Below are positions 1 to 11,934 of a stretch of 64,000 bases of DNA, in pieces. The DNA lies in contig NZ_QNGB01000007.1 of the NCBI RefSeq assembly GCF_003298505.1, positions 1 through 64,000 of the forward strand, in the 5' to 3' direction. A program made the position numbers and the translations under genes. Each line of letters begins with the position of its first letter. The stretch's first letter is position 1. This DNA is from Roseovarius sp. TE539. GTDB taxonomy: Bacteria; Pseudomonadota; Alphaproteobacteria; Rhodobacterales; Rhodobacteraceae. Under the pieces are notes generated by a model. The model was not told the DNA's origin. It made no database searches and saw only the letters and a list, made by a program, of their open reading frames with translations.

Positions 1-226
1 ACCAAAGGTTCGATGATCGCCCACTGCCTGTCTGTCAAAGTCCGTCTGCTCAAGATCGCCTCCCGTTTTTGATCTTGAATCAAACGAGAACCGATTTGGG
101 AATCCCCTAAATGCAGACGCCGCCTAGCCCCCGTTGCCGTTAGCGTTGCGGCAGCGCTGCATCATCCGCACCGGTTGGGGCTGGTGCCGGTGCAGCCGCG
201 CCGCCATCGGACGCACGGCCTTTCCC
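1..226. other. Left-edge noncoding stretch with a small inverted repeat
   Basis: I see no convincing gene here. Reading frames that cross this stretch on the + strand run antisense to the alcohol dehydrogenase gene and have no family-like character. The only structure is an 8-bp perfect inverted repeat, TCAAGATC (50-57) and GATCTTGA (71-78), separated by 13 bases. It could be an operator or a weak hairpin belonging to a gene left of the window. Confidence 0.4.
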
Positions 227-262
227 GCCCCGTCTACATCGCGGCCCCGTCTACATCGCGGC
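227..262. repeat. 17-bp tandem duplication over the 3' end of the alcohol dehydrogenase gene
   Basis: The unit CCCGTCTACATCGCGGC occurs twice in direct tandem. The matching stretch covers 227-245 against 244-262, a period of 17. The copy at 244-262 contains the last codons and stop of the dehydrogenase gene on the - strand; the other copy lies just past the stop and is untranslated. The coding frame is unaffected because translation ends in the first copy met. It looks like a replication-slippage duplication. Confidence 0.85.
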
Positions 263-1396
263 ATTGAAAAGCGCGGTGAGATTCTCCTCAGTCAGCGTGA
301 CAGGGTTGCCGCCGCAGGACGGGTCCTTGATCGCCCCCTTGACGAGTGCGGGGACAGCATCCGAGGTCACGCCGAGCGCGGCAAGGCCGCGGGGCACGCC
401 GAGGCTCTGGTTGAACCGGTCCACGAAGCTGCGGAAACCTGCGAAACCGCCTTCGAGTCCCAGGTAACCGGCAGCCCGATCAAACCGCGCACTGATCTCC
501 GGCGCGTTGAGGTCAAGCACCGCCGGCATGCACACGGCATTCGTGGTGCCGTGATGGGTATTGAAATGCGCGCCAACGGGATGGCTCATGGCGTGGATGG
601 CACCCAGTCCCTTCTGGAACGCGGTGGACCCCATCGCCGCCGCGCTCATCATGTGGGCACGCGCCTCGATATCGGTGCCATCCTTGAAGGCGCGGGGAAG
701 GTTCTCGATCACCAGCCGCATCCCTTCGAGGGCGATCCCCGCGCTCATCGGATGGTAATGCGGGCTCGAGAACGCCTCGACGCAATGCGCGAAGGCGTCC
801 AGCCCGGTGCCCGCGGTGATCGCAGGCGGCATTCCGACTGTCAGGTCGGGATCGCATATCACCGCGGCAGGAAGCATTTTCGGATGAAAGATGATCTTTT
901 TCTCGTGGGTTTGCGAATTCGTCAGCACCCCGGCACGCCCGACCTCGGACCCGGTCCCGGCGGTCGTGGGCACGGCCACGATCGGTGCGATGACGGACGC
1001 GTCGGCGCGGGTCCACCAGTCTCCGACATCCTCGAAATCCCAGACCGGCCGGGTCTGTCGGGCCATGAAGGCCACGCATTTGCCAAGGTCGAGGCCCGAG
1101 CCGCCGCCGAAGGCGATCACCCCGTCATGCCCGCCGGAGTTATAGGCGTCCACGCCGGCGGCAAGGTTGATTTCGTCGGGGTTGGGATCGACATCGGCAA
1201 ACATGGCCGCCTCCAGCCCCGCCTTGCGCAGTACCCCGAGCGCAGTCTCAGTGACCGCAAGCGCGGCCAACCCCCGGTCGGTGATCAGTAGCGGGCGGGT
1301 CATGCCGGCACCGGCGCAGGCATCCGGGAGTTCCGCGATCCGGCCAGAGCCGAAGCGGATGGCGGTGGGGTAGGACCAGTTTGCGGCGAGAGTCAT
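251..1396 (-). CDS. Iron-containing alcohol dehydrogenase family protein
   Basis: This 381-residue protein is of normal length for the group III iron-dependent alcohol dehydrogenases, cytosolic NAD(P)-linked enzymes that interconvert alcohols and aldehydes or ketones. The N-terminal half holds the nucleotide-binding signature FGGGSGLDLGK (residues 96-106). The C-terminal half carries the expected metal ligands: Asp200 and His204 in TGLDAFAHCVEA, His268 in AIHAMSHPVG, and His282 in NTHHG. It is the last gene of a leftward operon, 61 bp after the glutamine-synthetase-like gene. In that context it probably oxidises an alcohol group of an imported or glutamylated substrate, but the substrate is not evident. 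The stop codon lies inside a 17-bp tandem duplication. Confidence 0.9.
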   Translation of the reverse strand: MTLAANWSYPTAIRFGSGRIAELPDACAGAGMTRPLLITDRGLAALAVTETALGVLRKAGLEAAMFADVDPNPDEINLAAGVDAYNSGGHDGVIAFGGGSGLDLGKCVAFMARQTRPVWDFEDVGDWWTRADASVIAPIVAVPTTAGTGSEVGRAGVLTNSQTHEKKIIFHPKMLPAAVICDPDLTVGMPPAITAGTGLDAFAHCVEAFSSPHYHPMSAGIALEGMRLVIENLPRAFKDGTDIEARAHMMSAAAMGSTAFQKGLGAIHAMSHPVGAHFNTHHGTTNAVCMPAVLDLNAPEISARFDRAAGYLGLEGGFAGFRSFVDRFNQSLGVPRGLAALGVTSDAVPALVKGAIKDPSCGGNPVTLTEENLTALFNAAM

Positions 1397-1457
1397 TGGA
1401 ATCCTTCTCGTGTGTCGGGCTGTTTGCGAAATGGGTCATGTTTGCTTTCGGCGGCGG

Positions 1458-2819
1458 TCAGGCCCGCTCAAAACCGCGCTGAAGCTCGTATCCGGTGACG
1501 ACGCGGTCGAAATCCTCCTGTTCGATTTCCGCCGCACGCGAGTAATGATCCACGACGTCGTTCCCAAGCGCCGCGCGCAGCATCGCCGAGTTGCGGAACG
1601 TCTCGGTTGCCGCGCGCAAGGTGTGTGGTACGTCGGGAACGTCTTCCATCCCGTAGACATCGCCTTTTGCAGGCTCCGGCAGATCCAGCTCCTCGTCGAT
1701 CCCGGCAAGACCGGCGGCCAATTGCGCCGCGCAGGCCAGGTAGGGGTTCATGTCCGAGCCCGGAATGCGGCACTCGATGCGCACACCCTTGCTGTCCTCG
1801 CCCACGAGGCGGAAACCGGCGGTTCGGTTGTCGATGGACCAGGCCGCCTTGGTTGGCGCGAATGTGCCGGGCACGAAACGCTTGTAGCTGTTGATATAAG
1901 GAGCCATCAGCAACATGCAGTCAGGCGCGTATTTCAAGAGCCCGGCGACATACCGGCGCATTGTCCGCGACATGCCATGCGCGCCGTCCGCGTCATGGAA
2001 TGCATTTTCACCATCCCCGAACAGCGACTGGTGGATATGCGCGGCGCTGCCCACCCGGTCGGTATGCCATTTCGGCAGGAATGTGGCGGCATGGCCCTTC
2101 TGGGCCGCGATCTCCTTGACCGCATGTTTTGCGAGAGTATGGCGGTCGCAGGCAGCGAGCGCATCTCCGAAACGGATGTTCAGCTCCTCCTGCCCGGTCT
2201 CGGCCTCGCCCTTGGTGTTTTCCACCGGGATGCCCATCTCGAAAAGCGCGTTTCGGACCGGTCGGAGCACATGCTCGTCACGCGTGGACAGCTGGATCGA
2301 ATAGTCCTGGTTGTATTTCACCAGCGGCTCCAGGTCGCGGTATCCTTCGGCGCGGATCTCGTCATAGGATCGCTGGAAGATGAAGAATTCCAGTTCCGTT
2401 GCCATCATCGGCACCAGGCCCTTGGCGCCAGCGCGTTGCATCTGGGCCTTGAGGATCTGTCGGGGAGCGTGGGCAACCGGCGCGCGGTGATGATGATCAA
2501 GGAAATCACACAGCACCAGTGCGGTGCCCTCAAGCCACGGCACCGGGCACAGCGTCTCCGGATCCGGTTTCAACACGTAATCGCCATATCCCGCGGCCCA
2601 GCTTGTCGCGGCATATCCGGCGGGCGTGTCCATCTCGAGGTCGGTGGCCAGCAGGTAATTGCAGCAATGGGTTTCCTCGATCCCGCTTTCGAGGAAATTC
2701 GCCACGTGAAACCGTTTGCCGACAAGGCGTCCCTGCATGTCCACGGCGCAGGCCAGGACCGTGTCGATCTCGCCGCTCGCGGCCTTTTTCTTCAGCGTGT
2801 CCAGGGGGAGGGCTGTCAT
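1458..2819 (-). CDS. Glutamine synthetase-family ligase, possibly gamma-glutamyl amine ligase
   Basis: At 453 residues this belongs to the glutamine synthetase superfamily, which makes amide bonds between the gamma-carboxyl of glutamate and ammonia or an amine, using ATP. Family landmarks are visible: the metal-binding ELEFFIF strand (around residues 142-148), NIRFGDALAACDRH, the AAHIHQSL segment, and the substrate/ATP region NRTAGFRLVGEDSKGVRIECR. The sequence resembles the PuuA/GlnT-like branch more than housekeeping GlnA, and it lacks the GlnA adenylylation-tail context. It lies 74 bp after a TRAP binding-protein gene and before an alcohol dehydrogenase gene, which suggests catabolic gamma-glutamylation of an imported amine. 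The start has GGAG nine bases upstream. The amine substrate is unknown. Confidence 0.85.
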   Translation of the reverse strand: MTALPLDTLKKKAASGEIDTVLACAVDMQGRLVGKRFHVANFLESGIEETHCCNYLLATDLEMDTPAGYAATSWAAGYGDYVLKPDPETLCPVPWLEGTALVLCDFLDHHHRAPVAHAPRQILKAQMQRAGAKGLVPMMATELEFFIFQRSYDEIRAEGYRDLEPLVKYNQDYSIQLSTRDEHVLRPVRNALFEMGIPVENTKGEAETGQEELNIRFGDALAACDRHTLAKHAVKEIAAQKGHAATFLPKWHTDRVGSAAHIHQSLFGDGENAFHDADGAHGMSRTMRRYVAGLLKYAPDCMLLMAPYINSYKRFVPGTFAPTKAAWSIDNRTAGFRLVGEDSKGVRIECRIPGSDMNPYLACAAQLAAGLAGIDEELDLPEPAKGDVYGMEDVPDVPHTLRAATETFRNSAMLRAALGNDVVDHYSRAAEIEQEDFDRVVTGYELQRGFERA

Positions 2820-2893
2820 GATTCAATCGCTCCGTTCAGGCTTTGGAAGGGAGGGGGCGCCAACGGCCCCCCCCGGTCCGGCAGGTGCCGCAC

Positions 2894-3931
2894 TCAGCCG
2901 TAGCGGTAGGGCCGGCCGGCCTCCCGCATGACCTCGTTGTATTCCTTGATCTTGCTGACCACCTTCTGGCGCACCGGGCTTTCGCCGGCGATCTCGTCCC
3001 AGAAATCCTTGGCGGCGGCCTCGACCTGTTCCCATTCCTCGTCGGGAATCGTGGTGAGCTGCATCTTGTCGCCACCGACGCGCAAAGCGGCCTCGCCACC
3101 CCAGTACCACCATTGCCGGTAGTAATGCGAGCTGTCGAAAGTCACCTTCAGCAACTCCTTGAGGTTGTCGGGCAACTCTTCCCAACGTTCCATGTTGGCA
3201 AAGAAATGCCCGATCCAGGCCCCCGAGATGTTGTTGGTCAGGAAGTAATTGGTCACATCCGCCCACCCGACGGTGTAATCCTCGGTGATGCCGGACCAGG
3301 CGATACCGTCGAGTTCACCGGTTTGCACAGCGACCTCGATGTCCTCCCACGGCAGGGTCACGGGCACGACGCCGAACTGGCTTAGGAATCGGCCCGCGGT
3401 GGGGAAGGTGAACACGCGCTTGCCTTCCAGATCCGCGAGGCTGCGGACCGGATCCTTGGTTGCGAAGTGGCACGGATCCCACGAACCGGCCGAGATATGC
3501 TTGACGCCGACCTTGGCGTATTCCTCCTTCCAGATATCATCGAGCCCGTACTGGTTGAACAGCACCGGCACATCGAGCGAGTAGCGCAGCGCGAACGGGA
3601 AGTAGCCGCCGAAAACGCGCACATCGGTGGGCGAGGCCATCGAGTCGTCATCGGACTGTACCGCGTCGATCGTCCCGCGCTGCATGGCGCGGAACAGCTC
3701 GCCCGTCGGTACGAGCTGGTCTGCGAAGTACAGTTCGATCTGCATCTGGTCGCCGGCGATCCTGTTGAAACTGTCAATCGCCGGCTTGATCACGTGCTCT
3801 GCCAGCGCCGCCCCGGCATAGGTCTGCAACCGCCAGGTGATGGTGGATTGCGCGACGGCGGGCGCAGCGAGCGGCGCGGCGACGGCGCCGGCGCCTGCGG
3901 TCTTGAGGAACTTGCGTCTTGTCGTTGTCAT
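2894..3931 (-). CDS. TRAP transporter substrate-binding protein (DctP-type)
   Basis: This 345-residue periplasmic solute receptor of a TRAP transporter opens with a twin-arginine signal (RRKFLKTAGAGAVAAPLAAP, cleavage near APAVAQS), typical of Rhodobacterales binding proteins. The mature part has DctP features: the ADQLVPTGELFRAM region, DLEGKRVFTFPTAGRF, and the GELDGIAWSG segment that normally lines the ligand site. Similarity by eye is to the receptors that pair with larger small-permease subunits, annotated loosely as mannitol/chloroaromatic type. It follows the dctM gene by 48 bp in the same operon. The ligand cannot be read from the sequence; neighbouring amine-related enzymes hint at a nitrogen compound. 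Confidence 0.92.
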   Translation of the reverse strand: MTTTRRKFLKTAGAGAVAAPLAAPAVAQSTITWRLQTYAGAALAEHVIKPAIDSFNRIAGDQMQIELYFADQLVPTGELFRAMQRGTIDAVQSDDDSMASPTDVRVFGGYFPFALRYSLDVPVLFNQYGLDDIWKEEYAKVGVKHISAGSWDPCHFATKDPVRSLADLEGKRVFTFPTAGRFLSQFGVVPVTLPWEDIEVAVQTGELDGIAWSGITEDYTVGWADVTNYFLTNNISGAWIGHFFANMERWEELPDNLKELLKVTFDSSHYYRQWWYWGGEAALRVGGDKMQLTTIPDEEWEQVEAAAKDFWDEIAGESPVRQKVVSKIKEYNEVMREAGRPYRYG

Positions 3932-3979
3932 AGTCTTTCTCCTTGTTGTGGTTTCGGCCCCCGGTCGGGGCTCTTCTGG

Positions 3980-5302
3980 TTATTTTCCGTAAATCTGGTC
4001 GGGCAGCCAAAGCGCGATCTGCGGAAAGATCATCACCAGCGAAAGCGCCACCAGCATGACGCCCACGAAAGGGGTGATCGAACGGTAGATGTCCCGCAGC
4101 CCGATCTCGGGCGGGGCCATGGCGCGCATCAGGAAAAGGTTGTAGCCGAAAGGCGGTGTCATGTAGGCGATCTGTGTGGTGATCGTGTAAAGCACGCCAT
4201 ACCAGATCAGGTCGAAGCCGAGCGCCCCGACCAGCGGCACGTAAAGCGGCGCCACGATGACCAGCATCGCGGTGTCATCCAGAAACGTGCCCATGAGCAC
4301 GAAACTGAGCTGCATCAGGATCAGGATCATCCAAGGGCTGAGATTGAGCTTTTCGGTAAAGAGCCCCTCTATCGCGTTCACCGCTCCCAGCCCGTCGAAG
4401 ATCGCGCCGAAGCCGAGCGCCGCCAGGATGATCCACATGAACATGCACGACACGGCCAGTGTGCTGCGCACCGAGGTTTCGAACACCTCGCGCGTCATCC
4501 GCCGCTTGAGCACGGCGGCCAGGAATGCCGCGATCGCGCCGATGGCAGAGCTTTCCACCAGCGACGTCCAGCCCTTGACGAAAGGCACCATCATGACCGC
4601 GAAGATGACAAGCGGCAGCACCCCCGCGCGCAGAAGGCGCAGCTTCTCCGTCATCGGCACATTGCGCTCGTCTTCGGGAAGGACGGGGCCCAGATGCGGT
4701 TGAATCCGGCAGCGCAACCAGATGTACAGGATGAAGAGTGTCGCCATCAAAAACCCCGGAATCACGCCCGCAAGCCAGAGTTGGCCCACCGGTTGCCGCG
4801 CGATCATCGCATAAAGGACCAGCACCACCGAGGGCGGCACGAGAATACCGAGGGACGACCCGGCCTGCACGACGCCGGTGACCATTATCTTGTCGTAGCC
4901 GCGCCGCAGCAATTCCGGCAGGGCGATGGTCGCGCCGATGGCCATGCCTGCGACACTCAGCCCGTTCATCGCGGAAATCAGCACCATCAATCCGATCGTG
5001 CCGATGGCCAGACCGCCCCGTACCGGCCCCATCCAGACATGGAACATGCGATAAAGGTCGTCGGCGATGCGGCTCTCGGACAGGACATAGCCCATGAAAA
5101 TGAACATCGGCAGCGTCAGCAAGGGATACCATTTCATCAGTTTCATCGCCGCCGAGAACGGGATTTCCACACCTCCCGTACCCCACAGGAGCACCCCGGC
5201 GAGTGCCCCCACGAAGCCGATGGCGCCAAAGACGCGCTGCCCGGTCATCAACATCAGCATCATGCCGGCGAACATGATCAGCGCGATCATTTCATGCGAC
5301 AT
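3980..5302 (-). CDS. TRAP transporter large permease (DctM-type)
   Basis: This 440-residue integral membrane protein is the large (12 or so transmembrane helix) subunit of a TRAP transporter, which drives sodium-coupled import of a solute delivered by the periplasmic receptor. Hydrophobic helices run throughout, with DctM signatures such as GRVFGAIGF-like start, PMFIFMGYVLSES, the MNGLSVAGMAIGATIALPELLRRGYD region, and a C-terminal TPPFGYNLFLMR motif. Its start overlaps the end of the small permease gene by 11 bp, which implies translational coupling. It is followed by the receptor gene. Length and helix pattern look complete. Confidence 0.94.
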   Translation of the reverse strand: MSHEMIALIMFAGMMLMLMTGQRVFGAIGFVGALAGVLLWGTGGVEIPFSAAMKLMKWYPLLTLPMFIFMGYVLSESRIADDLYRMFHVWMGPVRGGLAIGTIGLMVLISAMNGLSVAGMAIGATIALPELLRRGYDKIMVTGVVQAGSSLGILVPPSVVLVLYAMIARQPVGQLWLAGVIPGFLMATLFILYIWLRCRIQPHLGPVLPEDERNVPMTEKLRLLRAGVLPLVIFAVMMVPFVKGWTSLVESSAIGAIAAFLAAVLKRRMTREVFETSVRSTLAVSCMFMWIILAALGFGAIFDGLGAVNAIEGLFTEKLNLSPWMILILMQLSFVLMGTFLDDTAMLVIVAPLYVPLVGALGFDLIWYGVLYTITTQIAYMTPPFGYNLFLMRAMAPPEIGLRDIYRSITPFVGVMLVALSLVMIFPQIALWLPDQIYGK

Positions 5303-5900
5303 CGGGTTCGCCCCCGCTCAGCCGTTCTAGATCACGGAAGAATTCGGCGATGCATTGCAGGATCATCAGCAGCACGCCGACACAGAGCACGACCTTGATC
5401 GGCCAGATCTGCGGTCGCCAGGCGGTCGGGCTGCGTTCCAGAAATCCGATCTTCTCGCGTGCGCCGCTGAGGCCATCGGTCAGGAAGGTCGCGAACAGGT
5501 CGCCGAAGAAAACGAAGGGGTCGGTTCCGAAATAACCCAGCGAATACGCGGTCGAACTTACCGCGCCCAGGAACAGTATCACCAGGTAATAGAGCAGGAA
5601 AAAGATCGTGACGGCGTCGACCCACGCCTTGGTCCGCGGTGACCAGTCGCCATAGAACAGGTCCATCCTTACATTCGATCCCAGCTGAATCGAATAGGGC
5701 CCTCCCAGGACATAATAGGCCACCATGACGAATTGCGCGGTTTCCAGGGTCCATGCGGCAGGCGTCAGGAACGTCTTGGAGAACGAGGACCACAACAGCA
5801 CGCCCATCAGAACGAACACAAGGTACATCGTCATTCGCCCGAGCCAGCGGTTCATCCCGTCGATGGCACGGATGTAACGTTTCATCGCCCTATGCATCAT
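5292..5900 (-). CDS. TRAP transporter small permease (DctQ-type)
   Basis: This about 202-residue protein has four predicted membrane helices, the usual small subunit of a TRAP transporter. The GGPYSIQLGSNVRMDLFYGDW segment is characteristic of DctQ proteins. The gene overlaps the preceding amidohydrolase gene by 11 bp and the following dctM gene by 11 bp, so the three are probably co-translated. Two ATG codons at the extreme 5' end (5900, 5897) and a third at 5885 (MKRYIRAIDG) are possible starts. The last matches the usual N-terminus of relatives, but its AGGG sits only two bases away. The long loop between helices 3 and 4 fits the larger mannitol-type DctQ subgroup. Confidence 0.9.
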   Translation of the reverse strand: MMHRAMKRYIRAIDGMNRWLGRMTMYLVFVLMGVLLWSSFSKTFLTPAAWTLETAQFVMVAYYVLGGPYSIQLGSNVRMDLFYGDWSPRTKAWVDAVTIFFLLYYLVILFLGAVSSTAYSLGYFGTDPFVFFGDLFATFLTDGLSGAREKIGFLERSPTAWRPQIWPIKVVLCVGVLLMILQCIAEFFRDLERLSGGEPDVA

Positions 5901-6663
5901 GCGTCACCACGAGCTTCAACTCGGCCAGGGCCGGGCACAGCAGGTCAAGCAGTTCCCGGGCGGTTCCGTCCTGATCGGCGGGGGTTGCGATCAGGTCGTT
6001 GCGCAGTTCGATCATCACGTTCGGCAAGCCGCCCGCGACTCCGTGCAGGCGCAGCGTGTGGGTCACGCCGTCTGCGGGACCGTAAGGTGCGTTGCGCTCG
6101 ATCCGGCGCCCTGAAATGTCCGCGCTCCGCGCCAGTATCGCATCGGCGAGTCGGGTATCATCGTCGTGAAGGATCCCGACTTCCACGTCACGGGGCTGGC
6201 CCAGCCAGGTTGGGGTGAAACTGTGAATGGTAACCAGGGCAAAGCGGTGCCCGGCCTTGCGGCGTCGATCCAGAAGGTTGGTCAGCGCCCGGGCGAAAGG
6301 GTCATAGACCTGCCGTACCCGCGCGGCGCGCGCGGTGGCGTCCAGCCCGACATTGCCCGGCACCTCGATGAATTCGGTTCTTTCCGGCATGGCGTCCGGT
6401 GCGCCGGGCGGGCGATTGCAATCATGCACCAGACGCGAGATCCGCCCCGAGATCATCGGCGCATCCAGTGCCATTGCCATGCGCCGCGCCACCGCCTCGG
6501 CGCCTGGATCCCACGCGGCATGGCTCTGTCTTGCGTCCTCGCTCAGCCCGAGCCCGTGATACTCTGCCGGAATGTGATTCGAAGCATGTTCACATACGAT
6601 GACCGCCGGGCCGGTGCCGCCGGCGCTCAGGATTTCAAAGGCGTCATCGTCATTTCCGGCCAT
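5890..6663 (-). CDS. N-formylglutamate amidohydrolase family protein
   Basis: This roughly 257-residue protein of the N-formylglutamate amidohydrolase (HutG2-like) family consists of zinc enzymes that cleave an amide on the amino group of glutamate or related compounds. Diagnostic pieces are VIVCEHASNHIP near the N-terminus, HAAWDPGAEAVARR, LVHDCNRPPGAPDAMPE, VTIHSFTPTW and a C-terminal NVMIELRNDL. I chose the ATG at 6663 because it precedes the conserved domain and has a purine-rich GGGGGCAAGG just upstream; extending further would cross the divergent operator. It is the first gene of the leftward operon and overlaps dctQ. No histidine-degradation genes are nearby, so its substrate may be another glutamyl or formyl amide. 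Confidence 0.85.
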   Translation of the reverse strand: MAGNDDDAFEILSAGGTGPAVIVCEHASNHIPAEYHGLGLSEDARQSHAAWDPGAEAVARRMAMALDAPMISGRISRLVHDCNRPPGAPDAMPERTEFIEVPGNVGLDATARAARVRQVYDPFARALTNLLDRRRKAGHRFALVTIHSFTPTWLGQPRDVEVGILHDDDTRLADAILARSADISGRRIERNAPYGPADGVTHTLRLHGVAGGLPNVMIELRNDLIATPADQDGTARELLDLLCPALAELKLVVTHDA

Positions 6664-6672
6664 CCTTGCCCC

Positions 6673-6730
6673 CGTTTCTGGAAAAAGCTTTCCACGTGAT
6701 ACGTTTTGCGTCAATATTTTTCCAGAAACG
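6673..6730. promoter_or_regulatory. Perfect 14-bp inverted repeat, likely operator for the divergent RpiR regulator
   Basis: CGTTTCTGGAAAAA (6673-6686) and TTTTTCCAGAAACG (6717-6730) are perfect inverted copies separated by 30 bp, 44 bp centre to centre (close to four helical turns). A nested AAAGCTTT palindrome (6684-6691) creates a second GGAAA/TTTCC pair at 6680-6693. The element lies between the start codons of the leftward amidohydrolase/TRAP operon (6663) and the rightward rpiR-type gene (6803). It is also AT-rich against its surroundings. This is the arrangement expected for a regulator that controls both arms and can bridge two half-sites. Confidence 0.7.
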
Positions 6731-6802
6731 CGGCGGAAGAAATCCGTTTCGGCAGGCCGCACCGCAAATTCCGTCTGTGACACCATCGCAAGAGGTCCGC
6801 CC

Positions 6803-7717
6803 GTGACCGACGATCCCCCCACCGACCCGCACGTCGCTTCACCAGGCCCGATGGCCGCCGTCACACCGACGGTACGCCAATTGTTGCGCAGCCATTACCG
6901 GGAGTTGACACTGTCCGAGCGCAAATTCGCCAACGCACTGGTGCAGGATTATCCCAATGCCGGGCTCGCCTCGATCACCGCAGCGGCCGAGAGGGCGGGC
7001 GTTTCGGCACCGGTGGTGGCGCGGATGGTGCAGAAACTGGGCTTCAAGGGGTATCCGCAATTCCACCAGGCACTCCTGCAAGAGCTTCAGGCCAAGGTTT
7101 CGGGGCCGACGGAGCGCCGCGCCGTATGGGCCACGGAAGCGCCGGAGTCGCATATGCTGAACCGGTTTGCAGGCGCGGTGACGCAGAACCTTACCCAGAC
7201 CTTTGCCAATGTCGACACCGCGCAGTTCGATGCGGCCGCGCGGCTGCTGGCAAGTGATGCCGGAATCTACATCGTCGGAGGCCGGATCACGCGGTCGCTT
7301 GCCGAATATGCCTTTACCCATTTCCAGGCCATCCGCGAAGGCGTCACCCACTTGACCTCGTCTCCGGCCACTTGGCCGCATTACGTGCTGGACATGGAAG
7401 AAGGCGATGCGCTGCTGATCTTCGACATGCGGCGATACGAGGAGAATCTCCTGCGCCTGGCCGAAATCGCGTCGGAGAGGCGGGTGCGGGTGATCCTGGT
7501 GACGGACCAGTGGGCAAGCCCGGTCGCGGGGCTGGCCGAGGCGACGTTTCATTGCTGGGGTGAAATCCCGTCGGCGTGGGATTCCAACATCGCCACGTTG
7601 TCGCTGGTCGAGGCACTCATCGCCGCCACCCAGGAGGAACGCTGGCCCGAAGCGCGCGAGCGTTTCGAACAACTCGACAGCCTTTTCGAAATGACGCGCC
7701 TCTTTCGACGACCGTGA
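6803..7717 (+). CDS. RpiR-family transcriptional regulator (HTH plus SIS domain)
   Basis: The encoded protein of about 304 residues has an N-terminal RpiR helix-turn-helix (LTLSERKFANALVQDYP, then SITAAAERAGVSAPVVARMV, residues about 40-85) and a C-terminal SIS sugar-phosphate-isomerase-like sensor domain (GIYIVGGRITRSLAEYAF and DALLIFDMRRYEENLLRLAE). It probably senses a phosphorylated or other small metabolite and acts as a repressor or activator. I chose the GTG at 6803 because AGAGG lies seven bases upstream; an ATG at 6851 is an alternative. It is divergent from the TRAP operon and 131 bp upstream of an ABC importer operon, so it probably governs both. Confidence 0.88.
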   Translation: MTDDPPTDPHVASPGPMAAVTPTVRQLLRSHYRELTLSERKFANALVQDYPNAGLASITAAAERAGVSAPVVARMVQKLGFKGYPQFHQALLQELQAKVSGPTERRAVWATEAPESHMLNRFAGAVTQNLTQTFANVDTAQFDAAARLLASDAGIYIVGGRITRSLAEYAFTHFQAIREGVTHLTSSPATWPHYVLDMEEGDALLIFDMRRYEENLLRLAEIASERRVRVILVTDQWASPVAGLAEATFHCWGEIPSAWDSNIATLSLVEALIAATQEERWPEARERFEQLDSLFEMTRLFRRP

Positions 7718-7848
7718 AAGATCGTTCAAGGGACACTGAAATGGAGACCGCGAAAGGAGAACTTGCTTTTCATCAAACCGTCACTGATCCTGCGCTAACA
7801 CGCGAAAACGAACAAAACCGATCATGCTGCAACAATCAGGGAAAACAA

Positions 7849-8919
7849 ATGAAACATTCCACCTACCTGACATGCGCCGCGGTCCTCACCGGATCTCTGG
7901 TGCTCGTGCAACCGGCCGCGGCAGAAACGCTGCGCCTGCTGACATGGGGCAACTACGCGCCCGAAACCGTCATCGCCAAGTTCGAGGAAGAGACTGGCCA
8001 TACCGTTGAAGTCACCCTGTCGAACAACGAGGAAATGATCGCCAAGCTGCGTGCCACCGGCGGCGGCGGGTTCGACCTTGCCCAGCCCAGCCAGGACCGG
8101 ATCACCGGGCCGCAGATGGAATTCGGCATCTACAAGCCGATCGACCTGTCGCAGATCGACGAAAGCCAGTTCATTCCCTCGATGCTGGCGGCCACCAAGG
8201 GCAACACCACGGTGGATGGCGAAGTCTATGGTGTGCCCCATGTCTGGGGCACGAGCGGACTGGTGGTCAATACAGCCGAGGCACCGGATGTCACCGATTA
8301 TACCGATCTCTGTGACGATGCGGTGGCGGGCAAGGTGTCCTACAGGCTCAAGCGCCCGACGCTGATCGGCTTCGCCTTCGCGATGGGCATGGATCCTTTC
8401 GCCGCCTATGACGACGCCGATGCCTATACGGAAATCATGGAGAAGGTGGGTGAGAAGCTCATTGATTGCAAACCCAACGTCAAGGCGTACTGGGGCGGCG
8501 GTGACGAGCTTATGAATCTCGTTCGCTCGGGCGAGGTGGTTGCCTCAATGGCCTGGGATACCGGCGGCTGGAAGCTGAATGCCGACAATCCCGACATCAC
8601 CTTCGTGGCCCCCGAAGCCGGCGCGCTAGGCTGGATCGACACTTTCGTGCTGCCCGCCAAAGGCCGCGCCGACGCGGCCGCTTATGACTGGATCAACTTC
8701 GTCATGCAGCCCGAGATCGCGGCGATGATCACCGACACGGCAGGTAACTTCACAGCGTCGAAGGGAGCTGACGAATACGTTTCGGCCGAACTCAAGGCGC
8801 GCTATCAGGCGAGCTTCCCGCCCGAGGCCGTGGACAACATCAAGTGGTATCCGCCGGTGCCGGCCGGACTCGAGGCGATCGAAGGCGGTATTCTGGACAG
8901 GGTCAAGGCGGCGCAGTAA
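7849..8919 (+). CDS. Periplasmic binding protein of a polyamine-type ABC importer (PotD/PotF-like)
   Basis: The protein has 356 residues with a classical signal peptide (MKHSTYLTCAAVLTGSLVLVQ, cleavage after PAAA) and the PotD/PotF fold: LRLLTWGNYAPETVIAKFEE at the mature N-terminus, then FDLAQPSQDRI, VPHVWGTSGLVVNT and a C-terminal PPVPAGLEAIEGGILDRVKA. Such receptors bind putrescine, spermidine or related cations or amino compounds. The acidic residues of true polyamine sites cannot be confirmed by eye. The ATG at 7849 has CAGGGA upstream and starts precisely at the signal peptide. It is the first gene of a potF-A-B-C operon, separated from the ATPase gene by a strong stem-loop. Confidence 0.9.
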   Translation: MKHSTYLTCAAVLTGSLVLVQPAAAETLRLLTWGNYAPETVIAKFEEETGHTVEVTLSNNEEMIAKLRATGGGGFDLAQPSQDRITGPQMEFGIYKPIDLSQIDESQFIPSMLAATKGNTTVDGEVYGVPHVWGTSGLVVNTAEAPDVTDYTDLCDDAVAGKVSYRLKRPTLIGFAFAMGMDPFAAYDDADAYTEIMEKVGEKLIDCKPNVKAYWGGGDELMNLVRSGEVVASMAWDTGGWKLNADNPDITFVAPEAGALGWIDTFVLPAKGRADAAAYDWINFVMQPEIAAMITDTAGNFTASKGADEYVSAELKARYQASFPPEAVDNIKWYPPVPAGLEAIEGGILDRVKAAQ

Positions 8920-8929
8920 CCGCCCGCCT

Positions 8930-8966
8930 CCGCGCCCGCCTGCGCGAACAGGGCAGGCGGGCGCGG
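8930..8966 (+). other. Strong GC-rich stem-loop between binding-protein and ATPase genes
   Basis: A perfect 14-bp stem (8930-8943 with 8953-8966, core GCGCCCGCCTGC) encloses a 9-base loop. It starts 10 bases after the binding-protein stop codon and ends 115 bases before the ATPase gene. There is no following T-tract, so it is more likely a partial terminator or an mRNA-stabilising element that keeps the binding protein at higher level than the membrane subunits, a common device in ABC importer operons. Confidence 0.7.
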
Positions 8967-9080
8967 CCATGCCGGCCAACGGTCGGGCGGTGATCGCCAA
9001 ACCGGCCGGGCCCGGCATGAAACCACATCAATGCCCCGACACGCATGAATTCGCCCCCCCGCGCAGGAGGTATCCGCCCG

Positions 9081-10205
9081 ATGAGCGCACCCGATCTGGA
9101 ATGCAGCGCGCTGATGAAACAATTTGACGGCGTGACGGCAGTGGACGACGTGTCCTTCACCGTGCCACGCGGGTCGTTCTTCTCGATCCTGGGGCCGTCG
9201 GGCTGTGGCAAGACGACGATCATGCGGATGATCGCCGGTTTCCTGGAACCGACATCCGGAGACATCCGCATCAGGGGCGGTTCGGTCATTGATGTGCCGC
9301 CCAACAAGCGCAACGTGAACATGGTGTTTCAGCATCTCGCGCTGTTCCCGATGATGAACGTGGCCGACAATATCGGTTACGGCCTTCGCCGAAAGCGCCT
9401 GCCACGCGCCGAGATCGCGCATCGGGTCGATGCCGTGCTTGAGCGGATCGGCCTGCCGGGGATCGGCCCGCGCCAGGTGGCCGAACTTTCGGGCGGACAG
9501 AAGCAGCGCGTTGCCATTGCCCGGTGCATGGTCCTGGAACCCGATGTGCTGCTGCTGGACGAGCCGCTTGGCGCGCTGGACCTGAAGCTGCGCGAACGCA
9601 TGAAAATCGAGCTGAAGGCGTTGCAGGCCGATTTCGGCACCACTTTCGTATACATCACCCACGACCAGTCCGAGGCGCTGGTGATGTCGGACCGTATCGC
9701 GGTGATGAATGCCGGCCGGTTCGAGCAACTGGGCAATGCGCGCGACCTCTACTACCGACCGGAGACGGCCTTCGTCGCCGGGTTCGTGGGGGATTCCAAT
9801 CGCTGGCGCGGGCGTGTCGCGCGGGTGTCGGGCGGAATTGCCGAGATGCAGGCCGACGACGGGCTGACTCTGCGGGCCGCGCTGCGCGGCGTCTCGGCAG
9901 CGGGTGACCGGGCCGAAATTTTCGTGCGGCCCGAACTGGTCCTGCCGGGGCACGACCCGGCCGATCTGGCCGGCTGTGACAACCGGCTGTCGGGCGAGGT
10001 GACCGATATCCTTTTCAACGGCGCCGCCAGCCGTGCCCTTTTGCGTTGCGTGGAAACCGGGACCGTTCTCGAAATGGCGTTGCCGCAATCTGGCCGCTTC
10101 GCCGGGTTGGGGCGCGGCGACCGGGTGCAAGTTGGCTGGGCTGCGGATCAGGCCGCCTGCTTTCCCGAACGCGGCACCGATGCCGGCCTCGCCGGGGCGG
10201 GCTGA
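9081..10205 (+). CDS. ABC transporter ATP-binding protein (PotA-like)
   Basis: This 374-residue ATPase powers the adjacent importer. Walker A is GPSGCGKTT, the Q-loop lies in NMVFQHLALFP, the ABC signature is LSGGQKQRVAIAR and Walker B is DVLLLDEPLGALD, followed by the switch histidine in YITHDQSEALVMSD. A C-terminal TOBE domain (about residues 285-365) matches the PotA/CysA/MalK group. I chose the ATG at 9081 because AGGAGG lies ten bases upstream; an upstream in-frame start at 9045 has no such site. The gene ends three bases before the first permease gene. Confidence 0.94.
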   Translation: MSAPDLECSALMKQFDGVTAVDDVSFTVPRGSFFSILGPSGCGKTTIMRMIAGFLEPTSGDIRIRGGSVIDVPPNKRNVNMVFQHLALFPMMNVADNIGYGLRRKRLPRAEIAHRVDAVLERIGLPGIGPRQVAELSGGQKQRVAIARCMVLEPDVLLLDEPLGALDLKLRERMKIELKALQADFGTTFVYITHDQSEALVMSDRIAVMNAGRFEQLGNARDLYYRPETAFVAGFVGDSNRWRGRVARVSGGIAEMQADDGLTLRAALRGVSAAGDRAEIFVRPELVLPGHDPADLAGCDNRLSGEVTDILFNGAASRALLRCVETGTVLEMALPQSGRFAGLGRGDRVQVGWAADQAACFPERGTDAGLAGAG

Positions 10206-10208
10206 ACC

Positions 10209-11072
10209 ATGCGCGCCGGAACCCGCCTCGGCTTTGTCCTTCTGATCGCCCCGCTGCTGTTGTGGCTTGTGCTGCTGATCGTGATTCCCCATGTCGACCT
10301 GGCGCTGCTGTCGCTGCGCGAGCGGGTCGGCGTGGGAGAATACGCGGTCAGCATGGCCAACTACCGCACCTTCCTTGACGAGCCCCTTTATCTCTGGACT
10401 TTCCTGCGCACCGCCGTGATGGCGGTTCTGGCCACCGCGATCACGCTGGTGATCGGGTTTCCGGTGTCGTTCTATATCGCCAAGATCGCCCGCGGCCGGG
10501 TGCAGTCGGCGCTTTTCCTGCTGTGCCTGGTGCCCTTCTGGGTGTCCGAGCTGGTGCGCACCTTCGGCTGGATGATCCTGCTGCGCGAGACCGGCCTGAT
10601 ATCGGGGCTGCTGCAATGGCTGGGCCTGACCGACGGCCCGGTCGAGATGTTGTACAATGACGCGGCGATGATGGTCGGGCTGGTTTACACCTCGATGCTG
10701 TTCATGGTGGTGCCGCTGGTCACGACGCTGGAATCGCTTGACGACGGCATCATCGAGGCGGGTTATGACCTGGGCGGATCGGGGCCGAGCGTGCTGCGCG
10801 AGATCATCATCCCCCACGCCGTGCCCGGCATCGTTGCGGGCTCGATCGTGGTGTTCATGCTGAGCCTCGGCAACTACCTGACGCCGACGATGCTGGGCGG
10901 CAAGGACAGCCTCTGGTTCACCGAGCTGATCTATTCGCAGTTCATCGTCCGCTTCAACTGGGAGTTGGGCGCGGCTTTCGGGTTCCTGCTGCTGGTGCTG
11001 TCGTCGGTGATCGTCTGGGCGATGCTGCGGCTGACCGGGCAGACACTGGAAAAGACGATGGGGTCCGCATGA
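10209..11072 (+). CDS. ABC transporter permease (PotB-like)
   Basis: This 287-residue inner-membrane permease has six predicted helices and the cytoplasmic EAA-type coupling motif (IIEAGYDLGGSGPSVLREIIIPHAVPG, read in two parts). It matches the PotB type of spermidine/putrescine-like importers in length and order. It starts three bases after the ATPase gene, so the two are coupled. The C-terminus ends SVIVWAMLRLTGQTLEKTMG, and the next permease follows 13 bp later. Nothing looks truncated. Confidence 0.92.
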   Translation: MRAGTRLGFVLLIAPLLLWLVLLIVIPHVDLALLSLRERVGVGEYAVSMANYRTFLDEPLYLWTFLRTAVMAVLATAITLVIGFPVSFYIAKIARGRVQSALFLLCLVPFWVSELVRTFGWMILLRETGLISGLLQWLGLTDGPVEMLYNDAAMMVGLVYTSMLFMVVPLVTTLESLDDGIIEAGYDLGGSGPSVLREIIIPHAVPGIVAGSIVVFMLSLGNYLTPTMLGGKDSLWFTELIYSQFIVRFNWELGAAFGFLLLVLSSVIVWAMLRLTGQTLEKTMGSA

Positions 11073-11085
11073 GGAGGCACGCACG

Positions 11086-11934
11086 ATGATTCCGTCGATG
11101 CCGCGCCCGCTCGCCTATCGCCTGATCTACGGGGCTTATGTCACGCTGTTCTTCGTCTATCTGGCATTGCCGCTGGCGGTGGTGGCCGTCTTTGCCTTCA
11201 ATGACAGCGTGTTTCCGGCGCTGCCCTGGGAGGGCTTCACCTGGAACTGGTTCTTCGGCGACGCGCGCCCGCAGATCGGGGTGTTCCACGAGCGGCGGAT
11301 CCTGAGGGCGATCGGCACTTCGGTGCTTGTGGGCGCCTGTGTCTCGGCGCTGTCGCTGGTGGTGGGCACGAGCAACGCCTTCCTATTCAACCGCTACCGG
11401 TTCCGTGGACGCGGTCTGCTTTACGTGCTGATGCTGCTGCCGCTGGTGATCCCCGGCATCGTGCTGGGCATCTCGATCCTGGTGTTTTCCTCGACCGTGG
11501 CGAACGCGGCCTGGGATGCCTGGGAATGGGATCTGGTGGCCTTGCGCCCGGGGTTGGTGCTGGTGATCCTGGGGCAGTTTTCCTTCATCACCACGATCGC
11601 CACTCTGGTGATCTCGGCGCGGTTGCAGAAGTTCGACCGCAGCCTTGAGGAGGCGGCGCTGAACCTGGGCGCCGGACGGCTGACGGCGGTGCGCACGGTG
11701 ACTCTGCCCTTCCTGGCGCCGGCGCTGGTGGGGGCTTTCGTCGTGGCATTCCTGATGAGTTTCGAGAATTTCAACACCACATTGATGCTCGTGGGGTCGG
11801 ATGCGCCTCTGACCATCGCCATGTTCGATCGTCTCAAGGAAGGCTCGACACCGCTGCTGAACGCGGTGTCGCTGCTGCTGATGCTGGGATCGAGCGTGCT
11901 GGCCCTGACGATGATCGTGTTTCAGCGCCGATAG
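11086..11934 (+). CDS. ABC transporter permease (PotC-like)
   Basis: This 282-residue second permease of the same importer has six predicted helices and an EAA loop (SLEEAALNLGAGRLTAVRTV). FAFNDSVFPALPW in the first periplasmic loop is typical of PotC proteins. GAGGAGG stands upstream of the ATG at 11086. It is the last gene of the operon; no polyamine-degrading enzyme follows on this strand, so catabolism of the imported compound may rely on the divergent arm or on genes elsewhere. Confidence 0.92.
   Translation: MIPSMPRPLAYRLIYGAYVTLFFVYLALPLAVVAVFAFNDSVFPALPWEGFTWNWFFGDARPQIGVFHERRILRAIGTSVLVGACVSALSLVVGTSNAFLFNRYRFRGRGLLYVLMLLPLVIPGIVLGISILVFSSTVANAAWDAWEWDLVALRPGLVLVILGQFSFITTIATLVISARLQKFDRSLEEAALNLGAGRLTAVRTVTLPFLAPALVGAFVVAFLMSFENFNTTLMLVGSDAPLTIAMFDRLKEGSTPLLNAVSLLLMLGSSVLALTMIVFQRR

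Follow-up and report, generated by a model that had tools for sequence, protein, structure and literature searches.

Known ethanolamine operons and the Roseovarius locus

Ethanolamine in the sea derives from a common phospholipid headgroup, and the operon described for its use in Phaeobacter sp. MED193 is the closest counterpart of the locus considered here, positions 251 to 11,934 of a 64,000-nucleotide stretch from Roseovarius sp. TE539 (the whole stretch is called the window below). The MED193 operon has the order RpiR, GGAH, EtoV, EtoW, EtoX, ETAGA, GAADDH and GETADH, five of its products increase on phosphorylethanolamine, EtoX binds ethanolamine with a Kd of 7.9 uM and has served in counts from ocean surveys to mark ethanolamine use, and the authors relate the genes closely to those of Chromohalobacter salexigens and Agrobacterium C58 (PMC10132767). 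Streptomyces coelicolor has a pathway that starts with the glutamine synthetase (GS)-like ligase GlnA4, which has been shown to make gamma-glutamylethanolamide and carries a phenylalanine, F331, at the flap position in a model. The proposed route proceeds from alcohol to aldehyde to gamma-glutamylglycine and ends with hydrolysis by a protein of the formylglutamate-amidohydrolase family, a gene product that is called glutamine amidotransferase in a figure legend, and an aldehyde dehydrogenase is kept. In place of the window's iron-dependent alcohol dehydrogenase and tripartite ATP-independent periplasmic (TRAP) importer there are a dehydrogenase of the short-chain type and a permease, the latter in related species (PMC6529630).

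In the window, the genes for an RpiR regulator, an amidohydrolase, the TRAP small permease, large permease and binding protein, a GS-like ligase and an alcohol dehydrogenase follow one another in the MED193 order, minus GAADDH. In the MED193 operon GAADDH lies between the ligase and the alcohol dehydrogenase, and the ATP-binding cassette (ABC) importer behind RpiR sets the window apart as well (PMC10132767). We consider it likely that the operon is a variant of the known ethanolamine (Eto) pathway from which the dedicated aldehyde dehydrogenase has been lost, with ethanolamine as the substrate suggested by orthology. The chemistry put forward in the original prediction, in which an imported amino-alcohol is glutamylated and oxidised before the glutamate is split off, is that of the published ethanolamine pathway, and the route is therefore not unrecognised, as had been claimed. 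The putrescine (Puu) pathway, which uses PuuB, PuuC and PuuD, shares the gamma-glutamylation logic, whereas the PuuB oxidase, PuuC and PuuD are all absent from the window operon. The predicted difference from Puu is thus true yet expected, and the absence of PuuD, also correctly noted, is no anomaly because the published pathway uses an amidohydrolase; what sets the window operon apart from the published ethanolamine operon is that it has lost the aldehyde dehydrogenase. The C. salexigens and Agrobacterium C58 pathway, reportedly described by Vetting et al. in 2015, is said to include such an enzyme.

All genes that the prediction had placed in the two arms are present with open reading frames. 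The minus arm holds the amidohydrolase, DctQ, DctM, DctP, the ligase and the alcohol dehydrogenase, and the plus arm RpiR and the PotD-like, PotA-like and two permease genes of the ABC importer:

251..1396, minus strand: iron-dependent alcohol dehydrogenase, GETADH type (PF00465/PF25137; synteny with the published gene)
1397..1457, minus strand: 61-bp junction between ligase stop and alcohol dehydrogenase start, the deletion site, where relatives have the aldehyde dehydrogenase gene
1458..2819, minus strand: GS-like gamma-glutamylethanolamide synthetase, ETAGA type (5dm3 match, flap Phe)
2894..3931, minus strand: EtoX-type TRAP solute-binding protein, DctP, with Tat signal (4uab match; TIGR01409)
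3980..5302, minus strand: EtoW-type TRAP large permease, DctM (PF06808)
5292..5900, minus strand: EtoV-type TRAP small permease, DctQ (PF04290)
5890..6663, minus strand: gamma-glutamylglycine amidohydrolase, GGAH type (PF05013; synteny with GGAH)
6670-6686 and 6717-6733, no strand: inverted repeat of 17 nt, 94% complementary, 30 nt spacing; candidate RpiR operator
6851..7717, plus strand: RpiR/MurR-family regulator (PF01418 and PF01380; NCBIfam matches all under cut-off)
7849..8919, plus strand: PotD-like ABC binding protein (PF13416)
9045..10205, plus strand: PotA-like ABC ATPase (PF00005, PF08402)
10209..11072, plus strand: ABC permease, PotB-like (PF00528)
11086..11934, plus strand: ABC permease, PotC-like (NCBIfam PotC 113 bits, cut-off of 326 not reached)

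The binding protein DctP is identical to PDB entries 4uab/4xf5 at 258 of 318 residues (81%) without a gap, and the next PDB relative follows at an E value of 1e-16. We take 4uab to be the C. salexigens binding protein with ethanolamine, and 4uab and 5dm3 to represent the binding protein and ligase of the C. salexigens/Agrobacterium C58 ethanolamine pathway. The window ligase shares 64% identity with 5dm3 over 450 residues. It lacks the flap glutamate (E327 of GSI) of ammonia-using glutamine synthetases and has phenylalanine instead, as do all 88 aligned ligase orthologs (the window included), whereas the GlnA of the same genome (G000) has glutamate. Its NCBIfam scores for GlnA and type III fall under the cut-offs, and the gamma-glutamylputrescine synthetase model gives 221 bits where 650 are required. 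For the amidohydrolase, the sole PDB relative by sequence is 2odf. An EtoX-type TRAP importer, a ligase without the flap glutamate, an iron-dependent alcohol dehydrogenase in the operon and GGAH with a divergent RpiR are all found; a dedicated aldehyde dehydrogenase is gone from the operon and was not found in the genome, which makes the operon a variant rather than a standard Eto member.

Conservation of the gene order, on which the prediction had been made to depend, is borne out. The best 80 of 576 relatives of the ligase in named genomes were fetched, and ligase and alcohol dehydrogenase occur together within the fetched stretch in 76 of these loci; L011, L030 and L048 (alcohol dehydrogenase not found) and L078 (contig ends) were left out of the counts on the 76. 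TRAP genes and amidohydrolase are also present in 62 of the 76, and RpiR in 59 of the 62. A survey of 394 genomes of the family recovered a ligase ortholog in 250 (E<=1e-140) and an alcohol dehydrogenase ortholog in 270 (E<=1e-110). Five ligase-alcohol dehydrogenase pairs (L015, L100, L101, L102 and L103) have differing surroundings and no TRAP genes in the fetched stretch, although the gene listing of the surroundings gave no genes for L103; L100 has the amidohydrolase. These pairs could be either a pared-down version of the pathway or what is left after its loss.

Recurrent loss of the aldehyde dehydrogenase

In the closest relatives (L006-L009) the aldehyde dehydrogenase gene lies between the ligase and alcohol dehydrogenase genes, where the window has 61 bp. 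It is missing in five of the 76 named loci (L015, L018, L039, L051 and L069); L015 is from Aquicoccus porphyridii and L039 from Sulfitobacter aestuariivivens. The gene is present in Ruegeria arenilitoris (L075). Among the matches listed, the family survey gave 150 ligase and 150 alcohol dehydrogenase rows; for 123 of the ligase rows, a listed alcohol dehydrogenase lies on the same contig in the same orientation. The gap between the two genes is below 700 bp in six pairs, including the window, 700-1,700 bp in 101 and larger in 16, the presence of the aldehyde dehydrogenase in the wider gaps not being confirmed row by row. The 11 ligase genes without the neighbour are mutually distinct, with at most 78% DNA identity.

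Whole genomes were also searched, with a query from G007. The dedicated aldehyde dehydrogenase was recovered at 67-81% identity from five genomes that have it in the operon (G005, G006, G008, G108 and G286). It was not found in nine genomes with the shortened operon (G000, G001, G002, G003, G004, G035, G216, G279 and G386), in which the best full-length matches have 31-36% identity and one short fragment 38%; the second search listed only matches at E<=1e-53, and the genome of L018 was left out. The original observation that the enzyme is missing thus holds for the operon and, as regards the dedicated family, for the genome search.

In trees of 88 ligases and 82 alcohol dehydrogenases, made by a quick method, the 11 rows require 11 changes, no fewer than eight of which are forced by well-supported branches in each tree. 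The loci L011, L030, L048 and L078 had no state in the 11-change ligase count and were taken as not lacking the gene for the count of eight, and the alcohol dehydrogenase tree without them likewise gives eight; L010, odd and with a very long branch, was kept in that tree. Inspection by eye of four other junctions (L015, L018, L039 and L069) shows, directly before the alcohol dehydrogenase start, a short piece that resembles the aldehyde dehydrogenase 3' end; for the window and L051 such a piece is doubtful. The gene has truly been lost, and repeatedly so, every case being a separate change.

We also considered a contig-edge artefact as the cause of the missing gene. It was rejected because relatives place the gene between ligase and alcohol dehydrogenase, a site that is visible here, and because it was not found in the genome, which is rated 99.93% complete (3.7 Mb in 83 contigs, the window being the start of contig C67).

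Genome G108 has two ligase-alcohol dehydrogenase copies (L098 and L099), one with the dedicated aldehyde dehydrogenase, TRAP genes and ABC genes and the other without these; about 2.5 kb from the latter lies a different type of aldehyde dehydrogenase (29% identity). A recurrent variant of this sort means that an absent aldehyde dehydrogenase gene does not show an absent pathway, and it raises the question of which enzyme handles the reactive aldehyde.

The ABC importer and its regulation

A PotD-like ortholog (E<=1e-130) is present in 42 of the 394 family genomes. In 15 of these the distance between it and the ligase is below 11 kb, and in L141 and L146 it also adjoins Eto genes, which gives 17 of the 42. 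The arrangement of the ABC genes varies. They stand behind RpiR in the same direction in the window, L008 and L146, and are convergent with RpiR in L018, L029, L037 and L141; elsewhere they lie downstream of the alcohol dehydrogenase, in the same direction in L017, L039, L044, L072 and L099 and in the opposite direction in L019 and L068. Furthermore, the ligase occurs in 39 of the 42 genomes with the ABC importer versus 211 of the 352 without it (Fisher p 6e-6, kinship uncorrected).

That the importer is an ordinary polyamine system, adjacent by chance, appears doubtful to us, although it accords with several observations. Family models and database names read spermidine/putrescine, at scores under the equivalog cut-offs, and the Eto genes are absent from the fetched stretch in the other 25 of the 42 genomes, six of which come in addition to the 19 loci considered below and include two on contigs shorter than 8 kb. 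Among 250 genomes of the family to which the Halomonas genome (L081, G402) belongs, six have the ABC importer, and in none of them does an Eto gene lie beside it within the fetched 10-20 kb. Seven named genomes with Eto genes were taken from other groups, G402 being one of them; three of the seven have the importer, with no Eto gene within the fetched 20 kb. Against chance adjacency stand the 17 linked genomes with their several arrangements and the excess of ligase among importer-bearing genomes. Moreover, 19 unlinked loci share no neighbour in more than two cases besides the ABC genes themselves, as judged with a crude gene caller and with some stretches reaching a contig end. Within the Halomonas family the ligase is found in four of the six genomes with the importer versus one of 19 listed genomes lacking it (p 0.005), or two of 20 when G402, which has the ligase without the importer, is included (p 0.013). 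The four genomes with both are probably close kin, because their surroundings look alike.

The binding protein itself also bears on the cargo. In PotF, acidic residues as well as a Trp and an Asp have roles in holding the diamine. The window protein retains the Trp and one Asp, and aligned by eye (MAFFT placed gaps there) its segment SYRLKRPTLI stands against SFLDDPEEVF of PotF; LKRPT for DDPEE is seen in nearly all 31 aligned sequences. This exchange, known from sequence comparison, makes a diamine cargo doubtful, and the label polyamine-type in the original prediction holds by family and not for the acidic stretch. The best reading is that the importer is functionally associated with ethanolamine use without being obligate to it, and the cargo of this companion is most likely a related compound and not a polyamine. 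The conserved Arg/Lys stretch would fit, for example, an ethanolamine-bearing compound with an anionic end.

One tentative hypothesis, which we hold with less than even confidence, goes further and combines two elements: that the aldehyde step is modular and has been given to general enzymes at least eight times, and that the PotDABC-like system belongs with the Eto operon as an additional importer, ATP-driven and so far without a name, for ethanolamine or a compound that bears it. If the importer does carry such a compound, the spermidine/putrescine family name is wrong and counts based on EtoX alone miss a route. The association of aldehyde dehydrogenase loss with the ABC arm (3/6 versus 8/71, Fisher p 0.035, kinship uncorrected) was not used as support. 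The core operon is already known; neither the state without aldehyde dehydrogenase, for which eight or more independent changes are required, nor the repeated pairing with the ABC importer is in the literature found, which held no paper on an Eto operon lacking the enzyme or on this importer and largely does not cover subscription papers. A paper on Ruegeria transporters is listed with 0 occurrences of the word ethanolamine (PMC10130141).

RpiR presumably regulates the operon, and the inverted repeat between the amidohydrolase and RpiR genes is a candidate operator. In seven close relatives a single similar half-site is seen in five (L007, L008, L009, L010 and L013) and none in L006 and L014, and the pair occurs in 0 of the 7. 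No RpiR operator shared with the ABC binding-protein gene was seen when half-sites and promoters were compared separately, without a joint motif search. Of 39 binding-protein promoters, 16 carry a palindrome near TTGACCAnnTGGTCAA with at most three mismatches; 100 single-base shuffles gave 0.31 on average. The palindrome stands upstream of the PotD-like gene with 0-2 mismatches in L017, L019, L129, L130, L132, L137 and others; the window's own binding-protein promoter is without it (five mismatches). Across six whole genomes the TTGACCAnnTGGTCAA matches mostly scarcely exceed a reversed control, the exception being G052 with 10 versus 0. The palindrome resembles the RutR site, and if it is real, the importer in those strains may be under pyrimidine-type control.

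The aldehyde step and competing explanations

In the Eto variant proposed here, ethanolamine would enter via the TRAP importer and be joined to glutamate by the GS-like ligase with ATP. The iron-dependent alcohol dehydrogenase would then oxidise the alcohol to the aldehyde, from gamma-glutamylethanolamide to gamma-glutamyl-aminoacetaldehyde, a general aldehyde dehydrogenase would form gamma-glutamylglycine, and the amidohydrolase would split this into glycine and glutamate. The remaining genes are under purifying selection, with ratios of nonsynonymous to synonymous substitution rates (dN/dS) against L008 of 0.07-0.20 for the alcohol dehydrogenase, ligase, DctP, DctM and amidohydrolase and 0.135 for the ABC binding protein; a comparison of the amidohydrolase with L009 (ratio 1.56) was dropped for a bad alignment stretch. 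A general aldehyde dehydrogenase acting in trans therefore probably does the step. Such a substitute is easy to imagine because the genome holds several types of the enzyme. There are 14 PF00171 matches, two of them within one reading frame, and the ten scanned include succinate-semialdehyde dehydrogenase types, aminobutyraldehyde/betaine-aldehyde types and one with PuuC as its best NCBIfam match. E. coli PuuC acts on a gamma-glutamyl aldehyde, and the PuuC-like enzyme, on contig C2, is the leading candidate.

Several points weigh against this account. The PuuC-like enzyme reaches 465 bits where the NCBIfam PuuC cut-off is 850. Close orthologs (>=64%) occur in four of the nine genomes lacking the dedicated enzyme (G000, G002, G003 and G386), G001, G035, G216 and G279 have only relatives of 40-46%, and G004 has no match at 1e-100. 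Three of the five searched genomes that contain the dedicated enzyme have the PuuC-like one too, so nothing marks it as the substitute. The dN/dS ratios reach back to the divergence from L008 and are not confined to the period after the loss, and another amino-alcohol could be the substrate. Finally, the contig ends 250 bp beyond the alcohol dehydrogenase stop, so that sequence past this gene is not visible. By eye, window positions 1-72 look like the tail of a transposase gene, which may explain why the contig ends there.

Two expectations were rejected. A single substitute common to all genomes without the dedicated enzyme was not found, the PuuC-like enzyme, the only one tested, not being in all of them. 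Likewise, no residue in the alcohol dehydrogenase, ligase or amidohydrolase tracks the loss beyond what label shuffling yields: out of 40 shuffles, 34, 8 and 7, respectively, equal the best column (best p 0.007 for the alcohol dehydrogenase). The test had only four amidohydrolase rows from loci with the loss, excluded L010 from the alcohol dehydrogenase and used shuffles that ignore kinship. Nothing in its outcome points to new chemistry in the three enzymes.

Decay of the operon, with the aldehyde dehydrogenase lost first and the other genes to follow, would fit the 11 losses, all of them separate and shallow. It would also fit the absence of TRAP genes and amidohydrolase from the fetched stretch in L015, L098, L101, L102 and L103, and of the TRAP genes in L100. 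We nevertheless judge it improbable, since the window genes are all open and have low dN/dS ratios (0.07-0.20), though these cover more time than has passed since the loss. The shortened operon might serve another amino-alcohol such as 1-amino-2-propanol, a secondary alcohol whose ketone end product would be freed by the amidohydrolase with no aldehyde dehydrogenase needed. This would agree with a dedicated enzyme not found genome-wide while the other window genes persist under purifying selection, but only a slim chance can be given to it: the TRAP binding protein of the window is still 81% identical to 4uab, no alcohol dehydrogenase or ligase residue tracks the loss, and the losses are individual changes that have founded no lasting new lineage. 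That the iron-dependent alcohol dehydrogenase, the sole oxidoreductase remaining in the operon, does both oxidations is very unlikely, given that it shows no convergent change with the loss and that a four-electron oxidation is, to our knowledge, unusual for its family.

Two other clusters in the genome contain related ligases. One, outside the window at positions 121319-126136 of contig C67 (L119 6320-11137), is Puu-like, with a flavin adenine dinucleotide (FAD) oxidase, two PuuA-like ligases and a PuuD-like protein, and adjoins amino-acid-type ABC genes; its ligases are matched by models and the remainder was recognised by eye. The other, at positions 789-5103 of contig C11 (L120), has a GS-like gene followed by three genes that by eye resemble a split glutamate synthase, presumably of the glnT-glxBCD or gmaS-mgsABC type and possibly for methylamine.

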